In this document: piece after piece, positions 42,602 through 52,047 of the stretch
Layout: each line of letters opens with the position of its first letter
How positions within the stretch are numbered: the first letter of the stretch is position 1
Source: Chloroflexi bacterium ADurb.Bin180
GTDB taxonomy: Bacteria; Chloroflexota; Anaerolineae; UBA2200
Assembly: GCA_002070215.1 (NCBI GenBank)
Contig: MWCV01000015.1
Location: forward strand, 1-56,098
Direction of reading: 5' to 3'
DNA: 56,098 nucleotides
Position numbers and translations under genes: made by a program
The notes under the pieces: generated by a model
Told to the model about the DNA's origin: nothing
Database searches by the model: none
What the model saw: the letters and a program-made list of their open reading frames with translations, nothing else

Positions 42602-42629
42602 TTGACCGTGCTGGTCGTTGTGCTATACT
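42602..42629 (+). promoter_or_regulatory. Promoter of the YbjN-like gene array
   Basis: TTGACC (42602-42607), a 16-bp spacer and TATACT (42624-42629), 27 bp before the first paralogue. Confidence 0.65.
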
Positions 42630-42656
42630 ATACGCAAAGCGAAAAAGGAGGACGCG

Positions 42657-43094
42657 ATGAACCGAGCCGAACTGGGGCAGATGTATTTGGATTACCTTCG
42701 TCAGGAAGGGTACGAGGGCAAGATCGACGAAGATGGCGACGTGCTGTTCAAGTTCGAGGGCGGCACGTACTTTGTCCTTATCGAGGAAGAAGACGAGATG
42801 TTCTTCCAGATAATGTACCCCAGTTTCTGGCCGATCGAGTCGGAAGAGGAAAGGGCCCGGGTGGAAAAGGCGGCTCAACTGGCGACCCGGTCGACCAAGG
42901 TGGCCAAGGTGTATCCCCAGCGGGACAATGTGACCGCGAGCGTCGAGCTGCTCTGTGTGCCGCCCGAGGCGTTCAAGGCGGTGTTCCGGCGTGCCCTGCG
43001 CTGCATTCAGGCTGGCGTGACCAAGTTCCGCGCCGAGATGAGCGAGTTGGACGCGGCGGCACCGCAGCCCGGCGCCACTGGCGACAGGCACTAG
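42657..43094 (+). CDS. YbjN-like protein, copy 1
   Basis: The 145-residue cytoplasmic protein resembles the YbjN (PF10722) sensory-regulator-like family, whose fold is like type III secretion chaperones. It has a short helix, an EDGDVLFKFEGG strand pair, an acidic turn, PSFWPIES and a long C-terminal helical half with TKVAKVYPQRDNV. AAGGAGG sets the ATG at 42657; an upstream TTG is rejected. First of three tandem paralogues. Function is unknown; YbjN overexpression affects motility and stress genes in E. coli. Confidence 0.7.
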   Translation: MNRAELGQMYLDYLRQEGYEGKIDEDGDVLFKFEGGTYFVLIEEEDEMFFQIMYPSFWPIESEEERARVEKAAQLATRSTKVAKVYPQRDNVTASVELLCVPPEAFKAVFRRALRCIQAGVTKFRAEMSELDAAAPQPGATGDRH

Positions 43095-43199
43095 TCGCCG
43101 CGAGAGCAGCGCGGTAAGCGAGCTGCGATAGCGAGGCAGTGGGCAGCCTGACCCGGTGGAAAGCGCCGCGCGGCTGCTATTCTGTTAGGGAGAGAGCAG
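43095..43199. repeat. Duplicated spacer, copy A (105 bp)
   Basis: This matches the spacer 43638-43743 with four substitutions and one extra base in the second. It is the footprint of a recent tandem duplication. Confidence 0.85.
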
Positions 43200-43637
43200 A
43201 TGGACAAAGCCGAACGAGCGCAGATGTATGTGAGCTATTTGCGCGAAGATGGATATGCGCTGGAGATCGACGAAGATGGCGACGTGATGTTCAAGTTCGA
43301 AGGCGGCACGTACTTTGTCCTTGTCGACGAAGAAGACGAGATGTTCTTCCAGATAATGTTCCCCAGTTTCTGGCCGATCGAGTCGGAGGAGGAAGGGGCC
43401 CGGGTGGAAAAGGCGGCTCAACTGGCGACGCGGATTACCAAAGTGGCCAAGGTCTACCGGCAGCGAGACAATGTGAATGCCAGCGTCGAGCTGCTCTGTG
43501 TGCCGCCTGAGGCGTTCAAGGCGGTGTTCCGGCGCGCCTTGGGCTCTATTCAGGCCGGCGTGAGCAATTTCCGCGCCGCGATGAGCGAGTTGGACGCGGC
43601 GGCACCGCAGCCCGGCGCCAATGGCGACAGGCACTAG
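43200..43637 (+). CDS. YbjN-like protein, copy 2 (apparent chimera of copies 1 and 3)
   Basis: 145 residues. The first 25-30 residues (KAERAQMYVSYLRE) match copy 3, while from about residue 37 to the end the protein follows copy 1 almost residue for residue, including the shared tail SELDAAAPQPGA. The crossover falls in the conserved DGDVMFKFEGG block. Lengths and start sites match the neighbours, and GGAGAGAG precedes the ATG. Confidence 0.7.
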   Translation: MDKAERAQMYVSYLREDGYALEIDEDGDVMFKFEGGTYFVLVDEEDEMFFQIMFPSFWPIESEEEGARVEKAAQLATRITKVAKVYRQRDNVNASVELLCVPPEAFKAVFRRALGSIQAGVSNFRAAMSELDAAAPQPGANGDRH

Positions 43638-43743
43638 TCGCCGCGAGAGCAGTGCGGTATGCGAGCAGCGATAGCGAGGCAGTGGGCAGCCTGACCCGGT
43701 GGAAAGCGCCGCGCGGGCTGCTATTCTGTTGGGGAGAGAGCAG
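43638..43743. repeat. Duplicated spacer, copy B (106 bp)
   Basis: Partner of the 43095-43199 spacer. It carries the same upstream signals before copy 3 as the first does before copy 2. Confidence 0.85.
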
Positions 43744-44178
43744 ATGAACAAAGCCGAACGAGCGCAGATGTATGTGAGCTATCTGCGCGAAGAGGGCTAT
43801 GCGCCGGAGGTCGACAAAGACGGCGACGTGATGTTCAAGTTCGAAGGCGGCATCTACTACGTCCTGATCGACGAGGAGGACGAGGTCTACTTCCGCATCG
43901 TGTATCCGGGGTTCTGGCCGATTCGCTCTGAGGCCGAGCGGGACAGGGTGATCAAGGCGGCGATGGCAGCGACGGCCTCGACCAAGGTGGCCAAGGTGTT
44001 CCCGGTAGGCGACGACGTGTGGGCCGACTCGGAGCTGCTCTGCGAGCCGCCAGAGGCATTCAAACAGGTGATGTGGCGCTGCATTCGTTCCATTCGAGCG
44101 GCCGTGGCCAAGTTCCTGGAGGGAATGAAGCCGGGCGATGAGGTGGTGGACCAGCAGGCTCCCGCGCCAGCGGCTTAG
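43744..44178 (+). CDS. YbjN-like protein, copy 3
   Basis: 144 residues, the most diverged of the three in the middle and C-terminal parts (VYFRIVYPGFWPIRSEAE, PVGDDVWADSELLCEPPEAF), with its own tail DEVVDQQAPAPAA. The ATG at 43744 lies after the same upstream sequence as copy 2; an earlier in-frame codon at 43699 is within that duplicated spacer. Closely spaced paralogues with unlike C-termini may bind different partners. Confidence 0.7.
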   Translation: MNKAERAQMYVSYLREEGYAPEVDKDGDVMFKFEGGIYYVLIDEEDEVYFRIVYPGFWPIRSEAERDRVIKAAMAATASTKVAKVFPVGDDVWADSELLCEPPEAFKQVMWRCIRSIRAAVAKFLEGMKPGDEVVDQQAPAPAA

Positions 44179-44682: not shown

Positions 44683-44689
44683 CACGCGT

Positions 44690-44774
44690 GGGCAGGTATC
44701 CAAGTGGCTAAAGGAACCGGTCTGTAAAACCGTTCGCCGAGCGGCGTTCGTGGGTTCGACCCCCACCCTGCCCA
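44690..44774 (+). tRNA. tRNA-Tyr (anticodon GTA)
   Basis: The 7-bp acceptor stem GGGCAGG/CCTGCCC (44690-44696 with 44767-44773), discriminator A at 44774, a D-arm with AAGTGG-CTAAA, and the anticodon GTA at 44724-44726 in loop CTGTAAA are all visible. The variable arm is long, as in bacterial type II tRNATyr, and the T-arm is GTGGG-TTCGACC-CCCAC. CCA is not encoded. One mismatch is seen at the top of the anticodon stem. The gene lies directly upstream of a T-box leader for tyrosyl-tRNA synthetase. Confidence 0.95.
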
Positions 44775-44792
44775 TGGGCAATTGAACAGAGT

Positions 44793-45078
44793 GCGGCTGT
44801 GATGGAGAAGCAGTAGCGGAGAGTCGGGCGCGACAGAGAGCGGGTGGCTGGTGCGAACCTGCGGCGGGGCCCTCTGCGAATTACCCTCCAGAGCCGCCAG
44901 CCCAAAGCTCCTGCTGGGGCGAGTAAGCCAGGCCGGGTTCTCCCGTTACCGAGAGCAGGTATGAGCCGCCCTATGAGGCGGGCAGTACCCGCAGAGGCCT
45001 CGACCGTGAGGTGGAGGCGAAGCAAGGTGGTACCACGAGAAAGAACCTCTCGTCCTTGAGGACGAGAGGTGTTTTTTG
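44793..45078 (+). promoter_or_regulatory. T-box leader controlling tyrS
   Basis: Stem I is bounded by GCGGCT (44793-44798) and AGCCGC (44892-44897), with an inner GGAG/CTCC pair. The specifier bulge has AGTA (44812-44815) opposite GAAT-TAC, giving UAC (Tyr) at 44882-44884 as specifier. GACAGAGAG (44832-44840) and the GGTGCGAA loop follow. The T-box core AAGGTGGTACCACG is at 45024-45037, where TGGT pairs with ACCA of an A-discriminator tRNA such as the tRNATyr just upstream. In this class uncharged tRNA binding prevents the terminator and switches the gene on. This leader fills the gap 44775-45128. Confidence 0.92.
45045..45077 (+). terminator. T-box terminator
   Basis: An 11-bp perfect stem (45045-45055 with 45060-45070), a TTGA loop, one G and six T. 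Its 5' side and the T-box core can form the alternative antiterminator. Confidence 0.9.
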
Positions 45079-45128
45079 TCGGTGGGGATGGCGGGCCCGA
45101 GGCAGAGCGGGCAAAGGAGCGGTGAGAG

Positions 45129-47120
45129 ATGAGGATGCAACTGTCGCCAGAGATCGTCAGGGGTTTTGCGGGGTACAGGCGGTTTGTCGTAGTGGCCCTG
45201 GGTATCGACAACCAGGCGGGCGGCGAGCGCGCCGCGGCGTTCCTGGAGGAGCAGCAGGAGCGCGTGCGGGCCGACCGAAAGCTGGAACAGCCCCGCGAGG
45301 TGTCGCGTATCGCCGCGTGGCGGCAGGCGTTCCAGAGCCTGGGCGAGGACGCGGACGTCACTCCGCCATCGATCCAGGCGCTGGTTGAGGGGATCAAGGC
45401 CGGCCGCTCCATCGGCACGCACAACACGGCGGTGGCGCTGCTCAATGCCATCTCGCTCAAGTACCTGCTGCCCTGCGGCGGCGACGACCTGGACAAGGTC
45501 GAGGGCGACCTGGCTCTGCGCCCGGCACGGGGCGACGAGCTGTTCGTGGCCTTTGACGGCAACCGCGTGGAACGTCCACCCAAAGGCGAGATCGTGCTGG
45601 CCGACCAGCGCAAGGTGCTGTGCCGTCGGTGGGTGTGGAAGCAGGGTGTGCACACCACGATCGAGGCGGAGAGCATCAATGTGGCCATCGACGTGGACGT
45701 GCTGCCGGTCATTGCGGAGGAAGAGGGTCGACGGGCGGCAATGGAGCTGGCCGAGCGCATCCGCGAGCTGGCTGGCGGCGAGGTGAGCGTGCATTTGCTC
45801 GCTGAGGGGCAGCCGGCGGTAGAGCTGCCGGAGCCGGCCCGGCGGCGCCAGGTGCGCAAGAACGTGTACGACGTGCTCGAGGAACGGGGCTACATCGAGC
45901 AGACCACGGACCGCACCCTGGCGCGCGAGCTGCTGGGGCAGGGCACCACGCTGTACGAGGGCTTTGACCCGACCAAGCCATCGCTGCACATCGGCCATCT
46001 GATGTCGCTGGTGGCGCTGCACCACCTGCAGGAAGCGGGCAACCGCATCATCTACCTCAACGGGGGCGGAACGGCTCAGGTGGGCGATCCCTCGGAAAAG
46101 TCCCAGGCGCGCAAAGTCATGACTCTGGACGAGATACGGGCGAACTCGGCGCAGATCAAACGCCAGGTGCAGGCGATGGGCCTGGTGGATTTCGAGAACG
46201 ACTGGCCGGGGCGGCCCAAGGCCATCCTGGAGGACAATGCGAACTGGCTCAACATGCCGCTGCTGGACTTTGCGCGCGAGGTGACGGTGCACTTTAGCGT
46301 CAACGAGCTGGTCAAGCGCGAAACGTTCCGCGACCGGCTGGAGCGCGAAGAGCCCCTGTCGCTCTTTGAGCTGCTGTACTGCACGCTGCAGGGGTTTGAT
46401 TTCCTGCACCTGTTCGATCACTATGGCTGCCGCGTGCAACTGGGCGGGAACGACCAGTGGGGCAACATCACCGACGGGGTGGCGCTGATCAAGCGCAAAA
46501 GGGGCGAAACCGCGGTCGGGGTGACCGTGCCGCTGATCACGCGCGGCGGGCTCAAGATCGGCAAGACAGGCGGCGGCGAGGCGGTGTGGCTGGCCGGCGA
46601 GGGCCCGTCGTCGACCAGCCCGTTCGATTTCTACCAGCACTGGGTGCAGACAGCCGACGACGACGTCGGGCGGATGATGCGGCTGTACACTTTCCTGTCG
46701 CTGGATGAGATCGATGAGCTCACGGCCGGGGATCCGCGAGTGGCACAGCGGCGGCTGGCGTTTGAGGTGACACGCATTGTGCACGGCGAGAAGGCGGCGC
46801 GCCAGGCGCAGGAAGAGGCGGGCCAGGCCTTTGCCGCGGCCGAGGGGCTGCCCCAGGGCGTGCCCACGGTGACGGTCACGGAGGAACAGCTCCAGGCGGG
46901 GCTGCTCCTGCGGCAGGTGCTGAAGGACGGCGGAGCCGCACCGTCGGTCGGCGAGGCCAAACGCCTGCTGCTGTCCGGCGCGGTGCAGATCAACGGCCAC
47001 AAGGTCGACGATCCGCTGCGGGCAGTGACGACGGACGACCTGCTGGCCTATGGCCAGCAGAGGGGAGCCCTGGTGCGCTTTGGGAAGGGCAAGGTCATCG
47101 TCGTTCTGTTGCAGCGCTGA
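45129..47120 (+). CDS. tyrS: Fusion of B3/4 editing-type domain and tyrosyl-tRNA synthetase
   Basis: 663 residues. Residues 1-230 are a whole B3/4 domain (PheRS beta editing fold): GRSIGTHNTAVALLNAISLKY, then LRPARGDELFVAFDGN and the final VDVLPVI strand. Residues about 240-663 are a complete class I TyrRS: LHIGHL with HIGH at 287-290, GGTAQVGDPSEKS, LGGNDQWGNI, KIGKT (476-480) as the KMSKS loop, and an S4 RNA-binding domain (about 595-660). Ordinary TyrRS is about 400-430 residues and has no editing domain. Start ATG follows AAGGAG. Control by the upstream T-box agrees with the assignment. The B3/4 part might clear a mis-acylated tRNATyr (for example Phe); that is inference. Confidence 0.9.
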   Translation: MRMQLSPEIVRGFAGYRRFVVVALGIDNQAGGERAAAFLEEQQERVRADRKLEQPREVSRIAAWRQAFQSLGEDADVTPPSIQALVEGIKAGRSIGTHNTAVALLNAISLKYLLPCGGDDLDKVEGDLALRPARGDELFVAFDGNRVERPPKGEIVLADQRKVLCRRWVWKQGVHTTIEAESINVAIDVDVLPVIAEEEGRRAAMELAERIRELAGGEVSVHLLAEGQPAVELPEPARRRQVRKNVYDVLEERGYIEQTTDRTLARELLGQGTTLYEGFDPTKPSLHIGHLMSLVALHHLQEAGNRIIYLNGGGTAQVGDPSEKSQARKVMTLDEIRANSAQIKRQVQAMGLVDFENDWPGRPKAILEDNANWLNMPLLDFAREVTVHFSVNELVKRETFRDRLEREEPLSLFELLYCTLQGFDFLHLFDHYGCRVQLGGNDQWGNITDGVALIKRKRGETAVGVTVPLITRGGLKIGKTGGGEAVWLAGEGPSSTSPFDFYQHWVQTADDDVGRMMRLYTFLSLDEIDELTAGDPRVAQRRLAFEVTRIVHGEKAARQAQEEAGQAFAAAEGLPQGVPTVTVTEEQLQAGLLLRQVLKDGGAAPSVGEAKRLLLSGAVQINGHKVDDPLRAVTTDDLLAYGQQRGALVRFGKGKVIVVLLQR

Positions 47121-47196
47121 GGAGAGCCGGCGCAGAGCGGTCCGGCACGCGGTGCTCGGTCCGGCGTGGGTTACTAACTGGTTACAAAACAGGCAC

Positions 47197-47225
47197 TTGA
47201 CGAAACCGACCAGATACACTATAAT
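47197..47225 (+). promoter_or_regulatory. Near-consensus promoter of the small Trp-rich gene
   Basis: TTGACG (47197-47202), a 17-bp spacer and a perfect TATAAT (47220-47225), 46 bp before the start codon. Confidence 0.75.
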
Positions 47226-47271
47226 GACAATGCGGACGGTTCGAGTCCACTTTGTCTTGGAAAGGAGCACC

Positions 47272-47649
47272 ATGAGACGCCTCGCGATCCTCGTCATTGT
47301 GTTCCTGCTGGTAGGGTCAAGCTGCGCGCCTGCAGCAAGGGCCGCCGGGTGTGAGGAGCTGCGCCTCGGGGCGAGGCGCTCCGTTCAGGAGAGGGCGAGG
47401 CTCGCCGTGCCTGCGGTGGCCGACAGAGGCGCGCAGTACGATGACGTCTGGAGCGGCGTGTGGTCCCAGATCGTGGCGCAGCTCAGGGCCTGGGCCGCGG
47501 CCATCGTCCGGTGGTTCAGCGGCGCGTTGAGGCAAGGTCTGGCGGTGGCCTGGGAGAGGGTCCGCTGGGAACTGCAAAAGATCTGGGAGTGGCTCAAGGA
47601 CCTGTGGAAGTGGATGAACCTCGGGGGGGACGTCGGGCCCCTTCGCTGA
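47272..47649 (+). CDS. Small exported lipoprotein-like protein with Trp-rich amphipathic helix
   Basis: 125 residues. The N-terminus MRRLAILVIVFLLVGSSCAP is a short signal with a possible lipobox (VGSSC). The second half (about 55-118) is a long amphipathic helix with Trp at regular steps, for example WLKDLWKWM near the end, which would lie on a membrane or form a coil. No family recognised. AAGGAG precedes ATG 47272. It has one of the best promoters in the window and its own terminator, so it is probably a well expressed monocistron. Confidence 0.65.
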   Translation: MRRLAILVIVFLLVGSSCAPAARAAGCEELRLGARRSVQERARLAVPAVADRGAQYDDVWSGVWSQIVAQLRAWAAAIVRWFSGALRQGLAVAWERVRWELQKIWEWLKDLWKWMNLGGDVGPLR

Positions 47650-47715: not shown

Positions 47716-50700
47716 CTAGTTCGCCGTTGTCGGCAGGGGGGTCGGGGTGGCGGTCAGGGCGTTGATGCGGCTCTGGGCCTCGGCCGGGTCGCACGAGGAG
47801 TGGGTGAGCACCAGACTGTACTGCTGCAGGGCCGGTTCGGTCTGGCCGGTGGCCTGGTACGAGTCGCCCAGCTTGAGGTGCGAGCTGCACAACAGCCGCA
47901 CGGCCTGACCCTGGCCATAGTCCGGCTGGTCAGCGAGGATGCGGGTCAGTTCGGACACTGCCCGGCGCCAATCGCCGCTGTCGTAAGCAGTGAACGCGTC
48001 GAGGTACTGGCTGGCGAGCTGTCGCTCCTTCTGGGCGACGGCGTTGGTCGAATCGAGCGCCAGGGCGCTGTTGAAACTCTGCGTGGCGTGGATGATGGCC
48101 GAACGGGTCGTGGCCAGGGCGATCTCCTGACGGCCCTGGTTGACGTAGGAATCGAGCAGGCGGGCGCGGACGGCGCCGTCGGGGTCGTCGATGCCTTTGG
48201 ACAGTGCGTCGCGGAAAGCGCTGACGGCTCTGGCCCAATCGCCGGCAGCGTAATAGCCTTCGGCTTGAGCGTGCAGCGCCTGCAGGTCGAGCGCGGTCTG
48301 ACACTGCGTCAGCAGTCGGTCGGCGTCCTTGTACCAGGGATCGATCTTGATGATCGACTGCAAGATCGTCGCTGCCTGGTCGTAGGCGCGGCTCTTCATC
48401 AGGGCCAGGGCCTGGTCGTAGAGTCCGCGCAGCTCCTGGTAGCGGGTGGCGTTCTGCAGGCCCTGTCTGGCCTCGGCGTTGTTCGGGTCGATGGCCAGGG
48501 CTTCGTTGAAACTGGCGATGGCCGAGGGATAGTCATCGACGATGAAAAAGTTGTAGCCGCGGGTGATGAGCTTTTGTACCTGGCTGCGGCCGAAAACCCT
48601 GACCGCCCAGGCCGAGGGCAGGAATCCCGAATAGGCCAGGGCGGCCACCACGGCTGCGACCAGGGCCAGCAGGAGCAGGCCGGTCAACATGGGGCGCAGG
48701 ATGGAGCGGCGGGGGCGCGGAGCCCGGCCCGGCTGGCTGCCGTTGTCCAGCTCGCCGGACAATTCGCCTTCGACCTCGCGCAGGAGAGACTCGACGCCGC
48801 GGCGGCGGGGGTCGATGGTGGCCAGGCGCAGCAGGGTCTCGCGGGCTCCCTTCAACTCGTGGTGGCGGTAGAGGTCGAGGGCCTCGGCAAAAAGCGCGTC
48901 GGCCTCGGCCGTTTCGGCGTCAGCGGGCGTTGCGGGCGGGCAGGGCACCGGCGGAGCAGGCTGTCTTTCCACGGCGGTCGGTGCCACCACTGGTTCTGCT
49001 GGTTCCACGGCAAGAGGGGCCGGCGGCTCTGGCGCGGACAGGGCGGGTTCTGGCTCTGGCTCTGCAGCAAGAGGAGCAGTGATAGCTGGCTCTGACTCGG
49101 CAGGTAGCGGGGCTGGCTCCTGGCGCGGCTCCGGGCCTGGCTGAGCGGCGGGCGGTTCTGGTTCGGCCGGGGCGATCATCAGCTCTGGTTCACCGGGGGC
49201 CATAGCCGGGGCCAGGTCCTCGGTGGTAAAGGGCAGGATTGCCGGCGGCTCGGGAGGCGGCCCGGCGGGCGGCAGGGGCAGGATAGAGGCGGCCTCCTCC
49301 TCGCTCTCGTCGTACTCGGGCGGCTCTGATGGAGGGGGCGACTCGGCCGGGGCGATCATGAGCTCTGGTTCGCCGGGGGCCATAGCGGGGGCCAAGTCCT
49401 CGGTGGTAAAGGGCAGGATTGCCGGCGGCTCAGGAGGCGGCCCAGCGGGCGGCAGGGGCAAGATAGAGGCGGCGGCCTCTTCCTCGCTCTCGTCGTACTC
49501 GGGCGGCTCTGGCGGCGTTGGTTCTGGCGGGGCAGCGGGTTCGGCAGCCAGCGCGGGTTCCGGCAAGGGCTGTTCGGCGGCGGCCGGCTCGACGGGGGCT
49601 GGCTCTGGCGGCGTTGGTTCGGCCTGGGCAGCGGCTGCCTCGGGGACCGCGGCTGCAGCCGGGAGCGGCTCGGTGGCGAGGGCAGGTCCGGCTGGCGCGG
49701 GGGTACGGCGGCGGAAGGGCCAGAAGTTGAACCGGCGCCGGGCAGGAGCGGACGGCGCCTCAGGCGCGGCTTGTTCGGCGGGCGGTGACGGCGGCAACGC
49801 CGCCTCGACCGGCGGCGCGGCAGGTGCGGGCTCTTCTGCGGGCAGAGGCGCGGGCGCAGGTCGGGCGGCAGGCTCCTCCGCGAGGGGCACAAAGGGCAGC
49901 GGACCCTCTGGCGGCACCCAGGGCACTGCGGGCGCCTCTTGCTCGGCGGCAGCCGGGGAGGGCAGTGGCGGCGCGGTCACGGACTCGGGCGGCTCTGGCG
50001 GCCGGGGCGCTGCCTCATCGAGGACGGTGGTCAGCACCTGCGGCCGGTCCAGACTGGCGGGGCGCAGGGTCAGGGCAACGGTGGCTCCCTCTGGAGATTC
50101 CTCCTCATCCTCGGGCGGAGGTTCCAGAGGCGGAACGAAAGGGCGGGACGGCGAACCCCCGGCAGGCGGAGGTTCACCTGGCGCGGCGCAGGCCGATCCG
50201 TCCCGCGCAGACGCCTCGCCTGCGGCGAGACTGTGTACAGGGGCCGCACCGCCCCGCGCAGACGCCTCGCCTGCGGCGAGACTGTGTACAGGGGCCGCAC
50301 CCTCGGCCAGGGTGGCTGGCCCGGCTGCACCGCCCGGGGCAGGAGGCGCCGCGCCGCTGGCGCTGGTTCCGGACGACGGGCGATGCTCGCTGCGGCGGCC
50401 GCGGCGGAACCAGTGGCGAATGCGGCCAAGCAGAGTGCGGTCACGGTGCCGTCGGGTGCGCTTGTGGCTGCCGTCTTCGGTGTAGTAGGAAGAATAGTAG
50501 TAGTAATAGTCGTAGGAGTAGGCCCCGCGGTGGGCGCCCACCTTGGTCAGGATCGAGCCGAGCAACTTGGCCTTGACCGCCTGAAGGACGCTCACTGCGC
50601 GCTCGAACATGCCGGTGCGGGTCAGGCCGGCCTCGACCACCATCAGCACGCCGTCGACCTTTTGCGCCAGCACGCTGGTGTCGGCCACGCTCAGCACGGG

Positions 50701-52047
50701 CGGGCTGTCCATCACCACATAGTCGGCCAGACCACGCAGGCGCTCGATGAGGGCGGACATCTCGGGAAAGCCCAGCACCTCGGCCGGGTTGGCCGGTACG
50801 GGACCGGAGGGCAGCACCGCGAGGTTCTCAATGCCGGTCTTGTGCACCACGTAATCCAGGTTGGCCTCCCGCTCGATGAGCAGCGAGGTCAGGCCGATGT
50901 CCTTGGAGATCTTGAAGAGCTTGTGCAGCGACGGGCGGCGCAGGTCGGCGTCGACCAGCAGCACCTTCTTGCCGGCCTGGGCCAGACTCACGCCCAGGTT
51001 GGCCACGGTGGTGGTTTTGCCTTCGGTGGGCTGGGCGCTGGTGACCAGCAGCACGGTGGACGGCTTGTTCAGACCCAGCGTGGCGAACTGGAGGTTCGTG
51101 CGCAGTACGCGGTAGCCCTCAGCGATGGAGGAGCGCGGTTCGATGGCGGTGACCGGGCCTTCCCCGTCGGCGGAGGGCGGGAAGCGGATGATCACGCCAA
51201 AGGTGGGCAGGCCCGTCTTGCGCTCGACGTCCTGGGGCGTCTTGACCGTATCGTCGAGGTACTCGATGAGAAAGGCCGCGCCGAGGGCCAGCATCAGGCC
51301 AATGGACGCGGCGAGGGCGACCTGCATCATGCCCTGGTTGCCAGCGGGCACGGTGGGGATGGCCGCCTCCTCGATCACGGTGAGCACGTTGACGCCGGTG
51401 TCGCCGAGGAGGAGCTGGTACTGGGCAAAGGTCGAACGCCAGTTGTTGACCTGCGTCTCGAGGGCGCTGATCTGGGATTTCAGGTCCTGAATCTCGCGCG
51501 CGCTGATGGCCTGAGCGAGCTCTTCCTGCAGCGACTGGATCTCGGCCTGGCCCTTCTGGATCTGTCCGGGCAGAATGGCCACCTGCTCCTGGATAAAGGC
51601 GCGGGAAGTGCCCTGGGGCCGGGCGGCCTCGACCGTGGCCATCAACTGGCGGGTCACCTCGTCGGCAATCTGCTTGGCACGGATGGGGTCCGTGTCGATG
51701 ACGCGGATCTCCATCAGCTCGGTGCCGGCCACGAGCTGAGCGGTGACCTGCCCGCGCAGGGCCCGCCACTGATCCTCAAAGCCCAGCGCCGCAGCCGTGG
51801 CCTTGAGCACTGGCTCGCGGCGGATGAGCTGGGAATAGGTCTGCGCCAGCCGCTCGGCAGTGTAGAACTCGGTATAGTTCGGAGAGACCTGCTGGATGGT
51901 CGTGCCGATCATCACCGTGGTCGAGGTCTGGTAGATGGGCGGCTGGTCTTTGACGACCCACCAGGAGGAGGCGGCGGCGACGACGGTGGCCAGGATGAGC
52001 AGCCAGGCCCATTTCCACAGAGTTGCGGCGATCTGACGAAGTTCCAT
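47716..52047 (-). CDS. Wzz/BY-kinase polysaccharide co-polymerase fused to Pro-rich linker and TPR domain
   Basis: 1443 residues. Residues 1-265 are a Wzz chain-length domain with helices at both ends and a coiled coil between. Residues 300-500 are a BY-kinase: P-loop PTEGKTTT (K344), VLLVDADLRR and YVVMDSPP. A tyrosine cluster (about 510-523) is the likely autophosphorylation tail. About 550 residues of Pro/Ala/Glu-rich linker follow with two internal repeats, then a membrane helix (about 1116-1140) and TPR-like repeats (about 1150-1440). Ordinary Wzz-kinase fusions end after the Tyr cluster at 700-800 residues. The last two parts would place the TPRs across the membrane, outside the cell. 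It controls exopolysaccharide length and export; the TPR role is unknown. Confidence 0.85.
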   Translation of the reverse strand: MELRQIAATLWKWAWLLILATVVAAASSWWVVKDQPPIYQTSTTVMIGTTIQQVSPNYTEFYTAERLAQTYSQLIRREPVLKATAAALGFEDQWRALRGQVTAQLVAGTELMEIRVIDTDPIRAKQIADEVTRQLMATVEAARPQGTSRAFIQEQVAILPGQIQKGQAEIQSLQEELAQAISAREIQDLKSQISALETQVNNWRSTFAQYQLLLGDTGVNVLTVIEEAAIPTVPAGNQGMMQVALAASIGLMLALGAAFLIEYLDDTVKTPQDVERKTGLPTFGVIIRFPPSADGEGPVTAIEPRSSIAEGYRVLRTNLQFATLGLNKPSTVLLVTSAQPTEGKTTTVANLGVSLAQAGKKVLLVDADLRRPSLHKLFKISKDIGLTSLLIEREANLDYVVHKTGIENLAVLPSGPVPANPAEVLGFPEMSALIERLRGLADYVVMDSPPVLSVADTSVLAQKVDGVLMVVEAGLTRTGMFERAVSVLQAVKAKLLGSILTKVGAHRGAYSYDYYYYYSSYYTEDGSHKRTRRHRDRTLLGRIRHWFRRGRRSEHRPSSGTSASGAAPPAPGGAAGPATLAEGAAPVHSLAAGEASARGGAAPVHSLAAGEASARDGSACAAPGEPPPAGGSPSRPFVPPLEPPPEDEEESPEGATVALTLRPASLDRPQVLTTVLDEAAPRPPEPPESVTAPPLPSPAAAEQEAPAVPWVPPEGPLPFVPLAEEPAARPAPAPLPAEEPAPAAPPVEAALPPSPPAEQAAPEAPSAPARRRFNFWPFRRRTPAPAGPALATEPLPAAAAVPEAAAAQAEPTPPEPAPVEPAAAEQPLPEPALAAEPAAPPEPTPPEPPEYDESEEEAAASILPLPPAGPPPEPPAILPFTTEDLAPAMAPGEPELMIAPAESPPPSEPPEYDESEEEAASILPLPPAGPPPEPPAILPFTTEDLAPAMAPGEPELMIAPAEPEPPAAQPGPEPRQEPAPLPAESEPAITAPLAAEPEPEPALSAPEPPAPLAVEPAEPVVAPTAVERQPAPPVPCPPATPADAETAEADALFAEALDLYRHHELKGARETLLRLATIDPRRRGVESLLREVEGELSGELDNGSQPGRAPRPRRSILRPMLTGLLLLALVAAVVAALAYSGFLPSAWAVRVFGRSQVQKLITRGYNFFIVDDYPSAIASFNEALAIDPNNAEARQGLQNATRYQELRGLYDQALALMKSRAYDQAATILQSIIKIDPWYKDADRLLTQCQTALDLQALHAQAEGYYAAGDWARAVSAFRDALSKGIDDPDGAVRARLLDSYVNQGRQEIALATTRSAIIHATQSFNSALALDSTNAVAQKERQLASQYLDAFTAYDSGDWRRAVSELTRILADQPDYGQGQAVRLLCSSHLKLGDSYQATGQTEPALQQYSLVLTHSSCDPAEAQSRINALTATPTPLPTTAN
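49163..49520. repeat. Direct repeat of about 180 bp inside the BY-kinase linker
   Basis: Two copies about 180 bp apart (for example GGCGATCAT at 49171 and 49351) code for the same 60-residue Pro/Glu-rich unit containing EPPEYDESEEE and PFTTEDLAPAMAPGEPEL. One codon has been gained in one copy. The unit contains acidic and Tyr residues. Confidence 0.85.
50202..50302. repeat. 51-bp tandem repeat inside the BY-kinase linker
   Basis: Two nearly identical units start at 50202 and 50253, each with the palindrome CTCGCC-TGC-GGCGAG. They add the peptide VHSLAAGEASAR twice to the linker. The palindromic core looks like a mobile intergenic repeat that entered the coding sequence in frame. Confidence 0.8.

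Follow-up and report, generated by a model that had tools for sequence, protein, structure and literature searches.

To our knowledge, tyrosyl-tRNA synthetase (TyrRS) has been treated as a synthetase that does not need editing. The described bacterial enzymes, both of the TyrS type (Escherichia coli and Bacillus stearothermophilus) and of the TyrZ type (Thermus thermophilus), have the same catalytic, anticodon-binding and S4 domains as the proteins reported here but lack their editing domain, and the curated 2024 table of domains common to synthetases in AARS Online gives no editing domain of the phenylalanyl-tRNA synthetase (PheRS) type under TyrRS (PMC11580382). B3/4 domains are found in the beta subunit of PheRS and in a large family of standalone proteins, of which CtdA, a canavanyl-tRNA-Arg deacylase of proven activity (PMC10018355), is the only member that we found characterised in the literature searched. 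Engineered chimeras of TyrRS and B3/4 edit Tyr-tRNA-Tyr (PMC3275996, PMC6540133). Here we analyse a 56,098-nucleotide stretch of DNA from Chloroflexi bacterium ADurb.Bin180 (contig MWCV01000015.1), referred to below as the window, in which a single gene at 45129-47120 (+) encodes a B3/4 domain fused to TyrRS. An earlier reading of the window's letters (the original prediction) had proposed this fusion and stated that TyrRS is not known to carry an editing domain; in agreement with that statement, the open-access literature yielded engineered chimeras only and no report of a natural B3/4-TyrRS. What appears to be new is a natural TyrRS with a B3/4 domain, while the kind of enzyme to which it would belong, the cis-editing synthetases, is known; an editing-type domain and a synthetase are indeed present in one chain.

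The gene is an ATG-started open reading frame of 663 codons without a stop, as had been predicted, followed by its stop codon. The openness of the frame is in itself little proof, because a 783-aa frame wholly antisense to it (44946-47297, - strand) is also open in this GC-rich DNA, most likely as a high-GC shadow. Residues 1-229 (45129-45815) make up the CtdA-like B3/4 domain, residues 230-243 (45816-45857) a short linker bounded by the profile matches and the structural model, and residues 244-663 (45858-47117) the catalytic, anticodon-binding and S4 domains of a TyrS-type TyrRS. Pfam B3_4 (PF03483) matches residues 63-193 (E 8.6e-20; 71.5 bits against a cut-off of 29.3), the match stopping at position 128 of the 174 in the profile, and phmmer aligns the domain with CtdA at E 4e-18. 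The second half is matched by TIGR00234 (tyrS) over residues 244-659 (302.8 bits, cut-off 113.8), by Pfam tRNA-synt_1b, the class I W/Y synthetases, over residues 273-568 (E 7.5e-55), and by Pfam S4 over residues 597-637 (46917-47039; E 1.8e-5). The HIGH motif (residues 287-290, 45987-45998) and the KMSKS-type loop KIGKT (residues 476-480, 46554-46568) are intact in the translation, with H287, G289, G474 and K476 invariant in our alignment A1. Y417, Q421 and D424 are invariant in 12 fusions; with Y276, we take them to be the tyrosine-binding residues Y34, Y169, Q173 and D176 of B. stearothermophilus. By every sequence test, namely the full-length tyrS match, HIGH, KIGKT and the tyrosine-binding residues, the window protein is a TyrRS.

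An AlphaFold2 model of the fusion, built on an alignment of 86 rows, had a mean predicted local distance difference test score (pLDDT) of 93.3 and a predicted template modelling score (pTM) of 0.88. Residues 1-226 of the model superpose on CtdA (9mkl_H) over 216 residues (Z 29.1, root mean square deviation 1.7 A), and residues 245-662 on E. coli TyrRS (6hb5_A) over 399 residues (Z 37.9). Since these matches run along the full domains, both halves are complete, and the expectation that both parts would be full length with their motifs has held.

The TyrRS half is inferred to charge tRNA-Tyr, which is supported by its being the sole TyrRS match in its genome: no second match was found in the draft assembly (3.13 Mb, 170 contigs, 95% complete). 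The fusion is likewise the only TyrRS above the tyrS cut-off in 12 of the 13 fusion genomes tested, the exception being G563, where a plain unfused TyrRS (L176) is present as a second copy on another contig. A second, plain TyrRS as the real charging enzyme was rejected for these 12 genomes. A pattern scan of genome contigs found two unfused TyrRS only, owing to the narrowness of its patterns. We also rejected the replacement of a lost PheRS editing function, as the PheRS beta subunit of the window's genome has its own B3/4 domain with the HAFD and LLEAA editing motifs intact.

A search of other genomes produced 17 more full-length fusions, so that the possibility raised with the original prediction, separate genes joined by a missed stop or frameshift, fails. 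Together with the window, the 18 fusions are spread over nine Chloroflexota families; genomes were sampled from the Chloroflexota and one Bacillota phylum, and the Chloroflexota range is to be read within that sample. Four are of the TyrS type, namely the window protein, those of G013 and G048 (family f9; 49-50% identical to it end to end) and that of G563 (f32; 47%). All four have a K(M/I)GKT loop, and three have HIGH, with HVAH in G563. The other 14 are of the TyrZ type and come from families f83 (4), f84 (2), f77, f115 (5), f48 and f139. The model of one of these, L047 (pLDDT 93.1), has T. thermophilus TyrRS as its best match (Z 40, 41% identity), and its N-terminal domain is predicted to share the CtdA fold (Z 29). 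In six TyrZ-type fusions of f115 and f48 (L046, L061, L155-L158), HxGR and KMSTS replace the usual HIGH and KMSKS.

The distribution of the fusion is sporadic. Of 396 genomes sampled from the window's class, 4 have it; the corresponding figures are 7 of 29 for the class to which G199 belongs and 6 of 158 for that of G372. The 348 genomes of the Bacillota phylum have none, and 34 of them encode a standalone B3/4 protein. In all 18 fusions the partner of B3/4 is TyrRS; among the 59 other B3/4 frames that we examined, no C-terminal extension exceeds 25 aa. Long frames in G153, G059 and G1151 were considered as fusions of B3/4 to other proteins and rejected, as the domain there is C-terminal and the preceding sequence looks like non-coding read-through. 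Between the window protein and two other fusions (L004 and L005), identity is 43% in the B3/4 half and 52-53% in the TyrRS half, so that the former is not far behind the latter in conservation.

A tree built from 68 B3/4 domains places the four TyrS-type fused domains beside standalone proteins from their own class (support 100/97 with family f3), a long way from the TyrZ-type fused domains, whose neighbours are standalone proteins from Clostridia and family f89. A single clade of all fused B3/4 domains was rejected by the approximately unbiased (AU) test (p-AU 3e-8), as was the one-clade constraint with 18 fusions (p-AU about 1e-61), and these tests on the B3/4 halves rule out a single fusion event. 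The TyrRS halves are themselves split between two deeply separated subfamilies, TyrS-type and TyrZ-type. For both these reasons, the sequences indicate that the fusion to TyrRS arose at least twice; with nine families and at least two origins, the single lineage-specific enzyme originally envisaged is no longer tenable. Whether the TyrZ-type group is itself one clade is judged differently by its two halves (p-AU 0.049 for B3/4 and 0.32 for TyrRS), and an unfused TyrRS, L124, sits beside these fusions in a placement that is not firm. Its repeated evolution suggests that tyrosine charging is proofread in some bacteria; we came across no description of a natural enzyme that edits this step. If so, tyrosine charging in some bacteria may be error-prone enough to need proofreading, and the repeated fusion would point to an as yet unnamed tyrosine analogue as the threat.

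The setting of the gene also points to tRNA-Tyr. Directly upstream come a tRNA-Tyr gene (anticodon GTA) at 44689-44775 (+; ARAGORN tRNA-Tyr(gta), Rfam tRNA 53.9 bits) and then a T-box leader at 44790-45060 (+; Rfam RF00230), neither of which the original prediction had mentioned. The specifier loop GAAUUACC reads UAC, for Tyr, if loop positions 5-7 are taken as the codon, and the identical register in the T-box upstream of the seryl-tRNA synthetase gene of G048 reads UCC, for Ser, which confirms it. The leader ends in a terminator hairpin and T run at about 45047-45077, read from the sequence as CCTCTCGTCC TTGA GGACGAGAGG TGTTTTTT. With a leader of matching specifier upstream, the fusion gene looks like a T-box-controlled tyrS beside its own tRNA. 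Two near-tandem tRNA-Tyr genes are found upstream of the G563 fusion (L121, 6054-6322, - strand). No tRNA-Tyr gene was found next to the TyrZ-type fusions, and no T-box in the examined flanks of standalone B3/4 genes.

The putative editing-site core, assigned by conservation and the PheRS register, covers residues 106-190 (45444-45698) and includes N106, G117, D119, D120, G153, E154, R166, W168 and D190. In an alignment of 13 fusions and 48 standalone B3/4 proteins, N106, G117, D120, E154, R166, W168 and D190 are kept in every fusion, and E154, R166 and W168 in every standalone protein as well. The conserved core is shared with CtdA (PDB 9f7e, 9mkl), as is the fold along all of the N-terminal domain (Z 29, 216-223 residues), although CtdA has E at the aligned sites 119 and 190 where the window has D. 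CtdA acts on tRNA-Arg as a standalone protein, unlike the window domain, and in the tree it clusters with five standalone proteins (support 100/96) with the fusions elsewhere. The identification of the domain as that of PheRS beta was right as to homology but not as to branch: the fused domain belongs with the standalone, CtdA-like proteins and has Gly where bacterial PheRS has His. Two independent alignments (phmmer and profile-profile) place N250 of T. thermophilus PheRS, the Asn of its triad, at N106, and His261 at G117. Glu334 falls at residue 188, which is D in the window, N in the other three TyrS-type fusions and P in the TyrZ-type, so that neither His261 nor Glu334, by which the PheRS beta editing domain may be recognised, is retained; the partner, a class I synthetase, is also different. 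In the phmmer alignment, G318 of E. coli PheRS, whose change to W is an editing mutation, corresponds to Q172 in the window and to Q or L elsewhere. Gly in place of the editing-site His is found in archaeal and eukaryotic PheRS as well, and Glu334 binds the tyrosine hydroxyl (PMC3275996). The fused pocket need not read that hydroxyl as PheRS does, and the editing site of a TyrRS must not.

Given the homology to CtdA, the repeated fusion to TyrRS, the conservation of the core and the adjacency of tRNA-Tyr, we think it probable that the fusion is a TyrRS with post-transfer editing in cis, which deacylates mischarged tRNA-Tyr and spares tyrosine. As originally suggested, editing would be the simplest reading of a complete, core-conserving B3/4 domain on a natural TyrRS, whereas the structural use of the fold that had been offered beside it is weakened by the conserved pocket. 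The TyrRS half would charge tRNA-Tyr, at times with a tyrosine analogue; the charged 3' end would then shift to the B3/4 pocket, where the ester of the wrong amino acid would be hydrolysed and Tyr-tRNA-Tyr left intact. Uncharged tRNA-Tyr freed by editing could relieve termination at the T-box and so raise expression of the enzyme. As the pocket must spare tyrosine, its specificity would be unlike that of PheRS, in keeping with the replacements at the aligned Glu334 and Gly318 sites. That the geometry of TyrRS and B3/4 can work, with the end of tRNA-Tyr within reach of the domain, is known from the engineered proteins: the 2008 chimera edits tRNA-Tyr in cis, as proposed for the fusion, but it is artificial, has an archaeal PheRS domain and removes the cognate tyrosine (PMC3275996, PMC6540133). 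For genetic code expansion, the fusions would offer natural, tyrosine-sparing counterparts to such hand-built chimeras.

As to the substrate, our guess is a ring-hydroxylated tyrosine analogue that TyrRS accepts, such as L-3,4-dihydroxyphenylalanine (L-DOPA) or meta-tyrosine. E. coli TyrRS charges meta-tyrosine onto tRNA-Tyr in vitro (PMC4066437), and DOPA enters tyrosine sites in a cell-free system (PMC9050441). Phenylalanine, also named in the original prediction, is less likely, because its activation by E. coli TyrRS was undetected (PMC9050441) and polar residues occupy the conserved positions of the pocket. Several observations weigh against the editing proposal. Meta-tyrosine did not enter tyrosine sites in a cell-free system of E. 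coli (PMC9050441), and L-DOPA left the growth of E. coli uninhibited, both in the wild type and in a strain deficient in PheRS editing (PMC4066437). Pocket positions 119 (D or H) and 188 (N/D or P) are not the same in the two fusion groups, which may lack a common substrate, the active-site core is a putative one that rests on conservation and the PheRS alignment, and the T-box score is barely over its threshold (93.3 bits against a gathering cut-off of 93).

In its pocket residues each fusion group matches its standalone sisters, with D at 119 and mostly N at 188 in one group and H at 119 and P at 188 in the other, and the fusions may therefore continue a job that the sisters already do. We give an even chance to a broader proposal, in which two TyrRS subfamilies each recruited a standalone B3/4 deacylase to become the first natural post-transfer-editing TyrRS, with a pocket that rejects tyrosine and removes an analogue, and in which the standalone sisters of the same signature in Clostridia and Chloroflexota are trans-editors of tRNA-Tyr. 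This would suggest tRNA-Tyr as the target of parts of the large standalone B3/4 family. The standalone proteins L097-L106 (Clostridia) and L024-L026 (Chloroflexota, f3), whose pocket signatures are those of the fusions, are candidate trans-editors.

The shared residues could also mean that the domain acts in trans on another tRNA, for example Tyr-tRNA-Phe or the target of its standalone ancestor, with fusion to TyrRS serving co-regulation only. Standalone B3/4 proteins do work in trans, and CtdA edits tRNA-Arg in spite of its relationship to PheRS (PMC10018355, PMC11415595). We nevertheless regard this explanation as unlikely, since two independent fusions chose TyrRS while the standalone frames examined have no other partner, a tRNA-Tyr gene and a Tyr T-box accompany the fusion gene, the PheRS beta of this genome retains its editing motifs, and the fused domains lie outside the CtdA clade.

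Appended non-catalytic domains are common among synthetases, and the B3/4 domain could be one of them, inactive as an enzyme and serving in tRNA binding or in the architecture of the dimer. In three TyrZ-type fusions (L055, L061 and L062, of f84 and f48) R167 is replaced by W and the conserved W170 by G or S, and the editing pocket of these proteins may be changed. As a general account an inactive domain is improbable, since the 13 aligned fusions all have N106, E154, R166, W168 and D190 even though they share only about 30% identity across the two types.

D-tyrosine is a known TyrRS error, and the fusion could in principle take the place of DTD as a deacylase of D-Tyr-tRNA-Tyr. DTD (PF02580) is, however, encoded in 11 of the 13 fusion genomes and in that of the window, which makes a substitute for it very hard to credit. 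We are just as sceptical of a regulatory or futile cycle in which cognate Tyr-tRNA-Tyr is deacylated to feed the T-box. When fused to TyrRS, an archaeal PheRS B3/4 domain does deacylate Tyr-tRNA-Tyr (PMC3275996), and the window has a carboxylate, D188, at the Glu334 position, but the other fusions have N or P there, and waste of Tyr-tRNA would be costly where the fusion is the sole TyrRS, as in most fusion genomes. An assembly or frame artefact, which a draft genome of 170 contigs might invite, has practically nothing left to recommend it, as chance, a missed stop and misassembly are ruled out by the domain matches and by the 17 other genomes with the same architecture, in the nearest of which the protein is 47-50% identical over its full length.

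Two further features of the window flank the locus. Just upstream of the tRNA-Tyr gene, at 42618-44178 (+), three small paralogous proteins of 145-159 aa are encoded in tandem, and their matches to the YbjN/TY-Chap1 family of peptide-binding chaperones fall below threshold. Downstream, at 47716-52047 (-), a 1443-aa protein combines a Wzz chain-length domain and a P-loop tyrosine-kinase-like domain having a tyrosine cluster, YSYDYYYYYSSYY, and continues through a long Pro/Glu-rich region into C-terminal tetratricopeptide (TPR) repeats.
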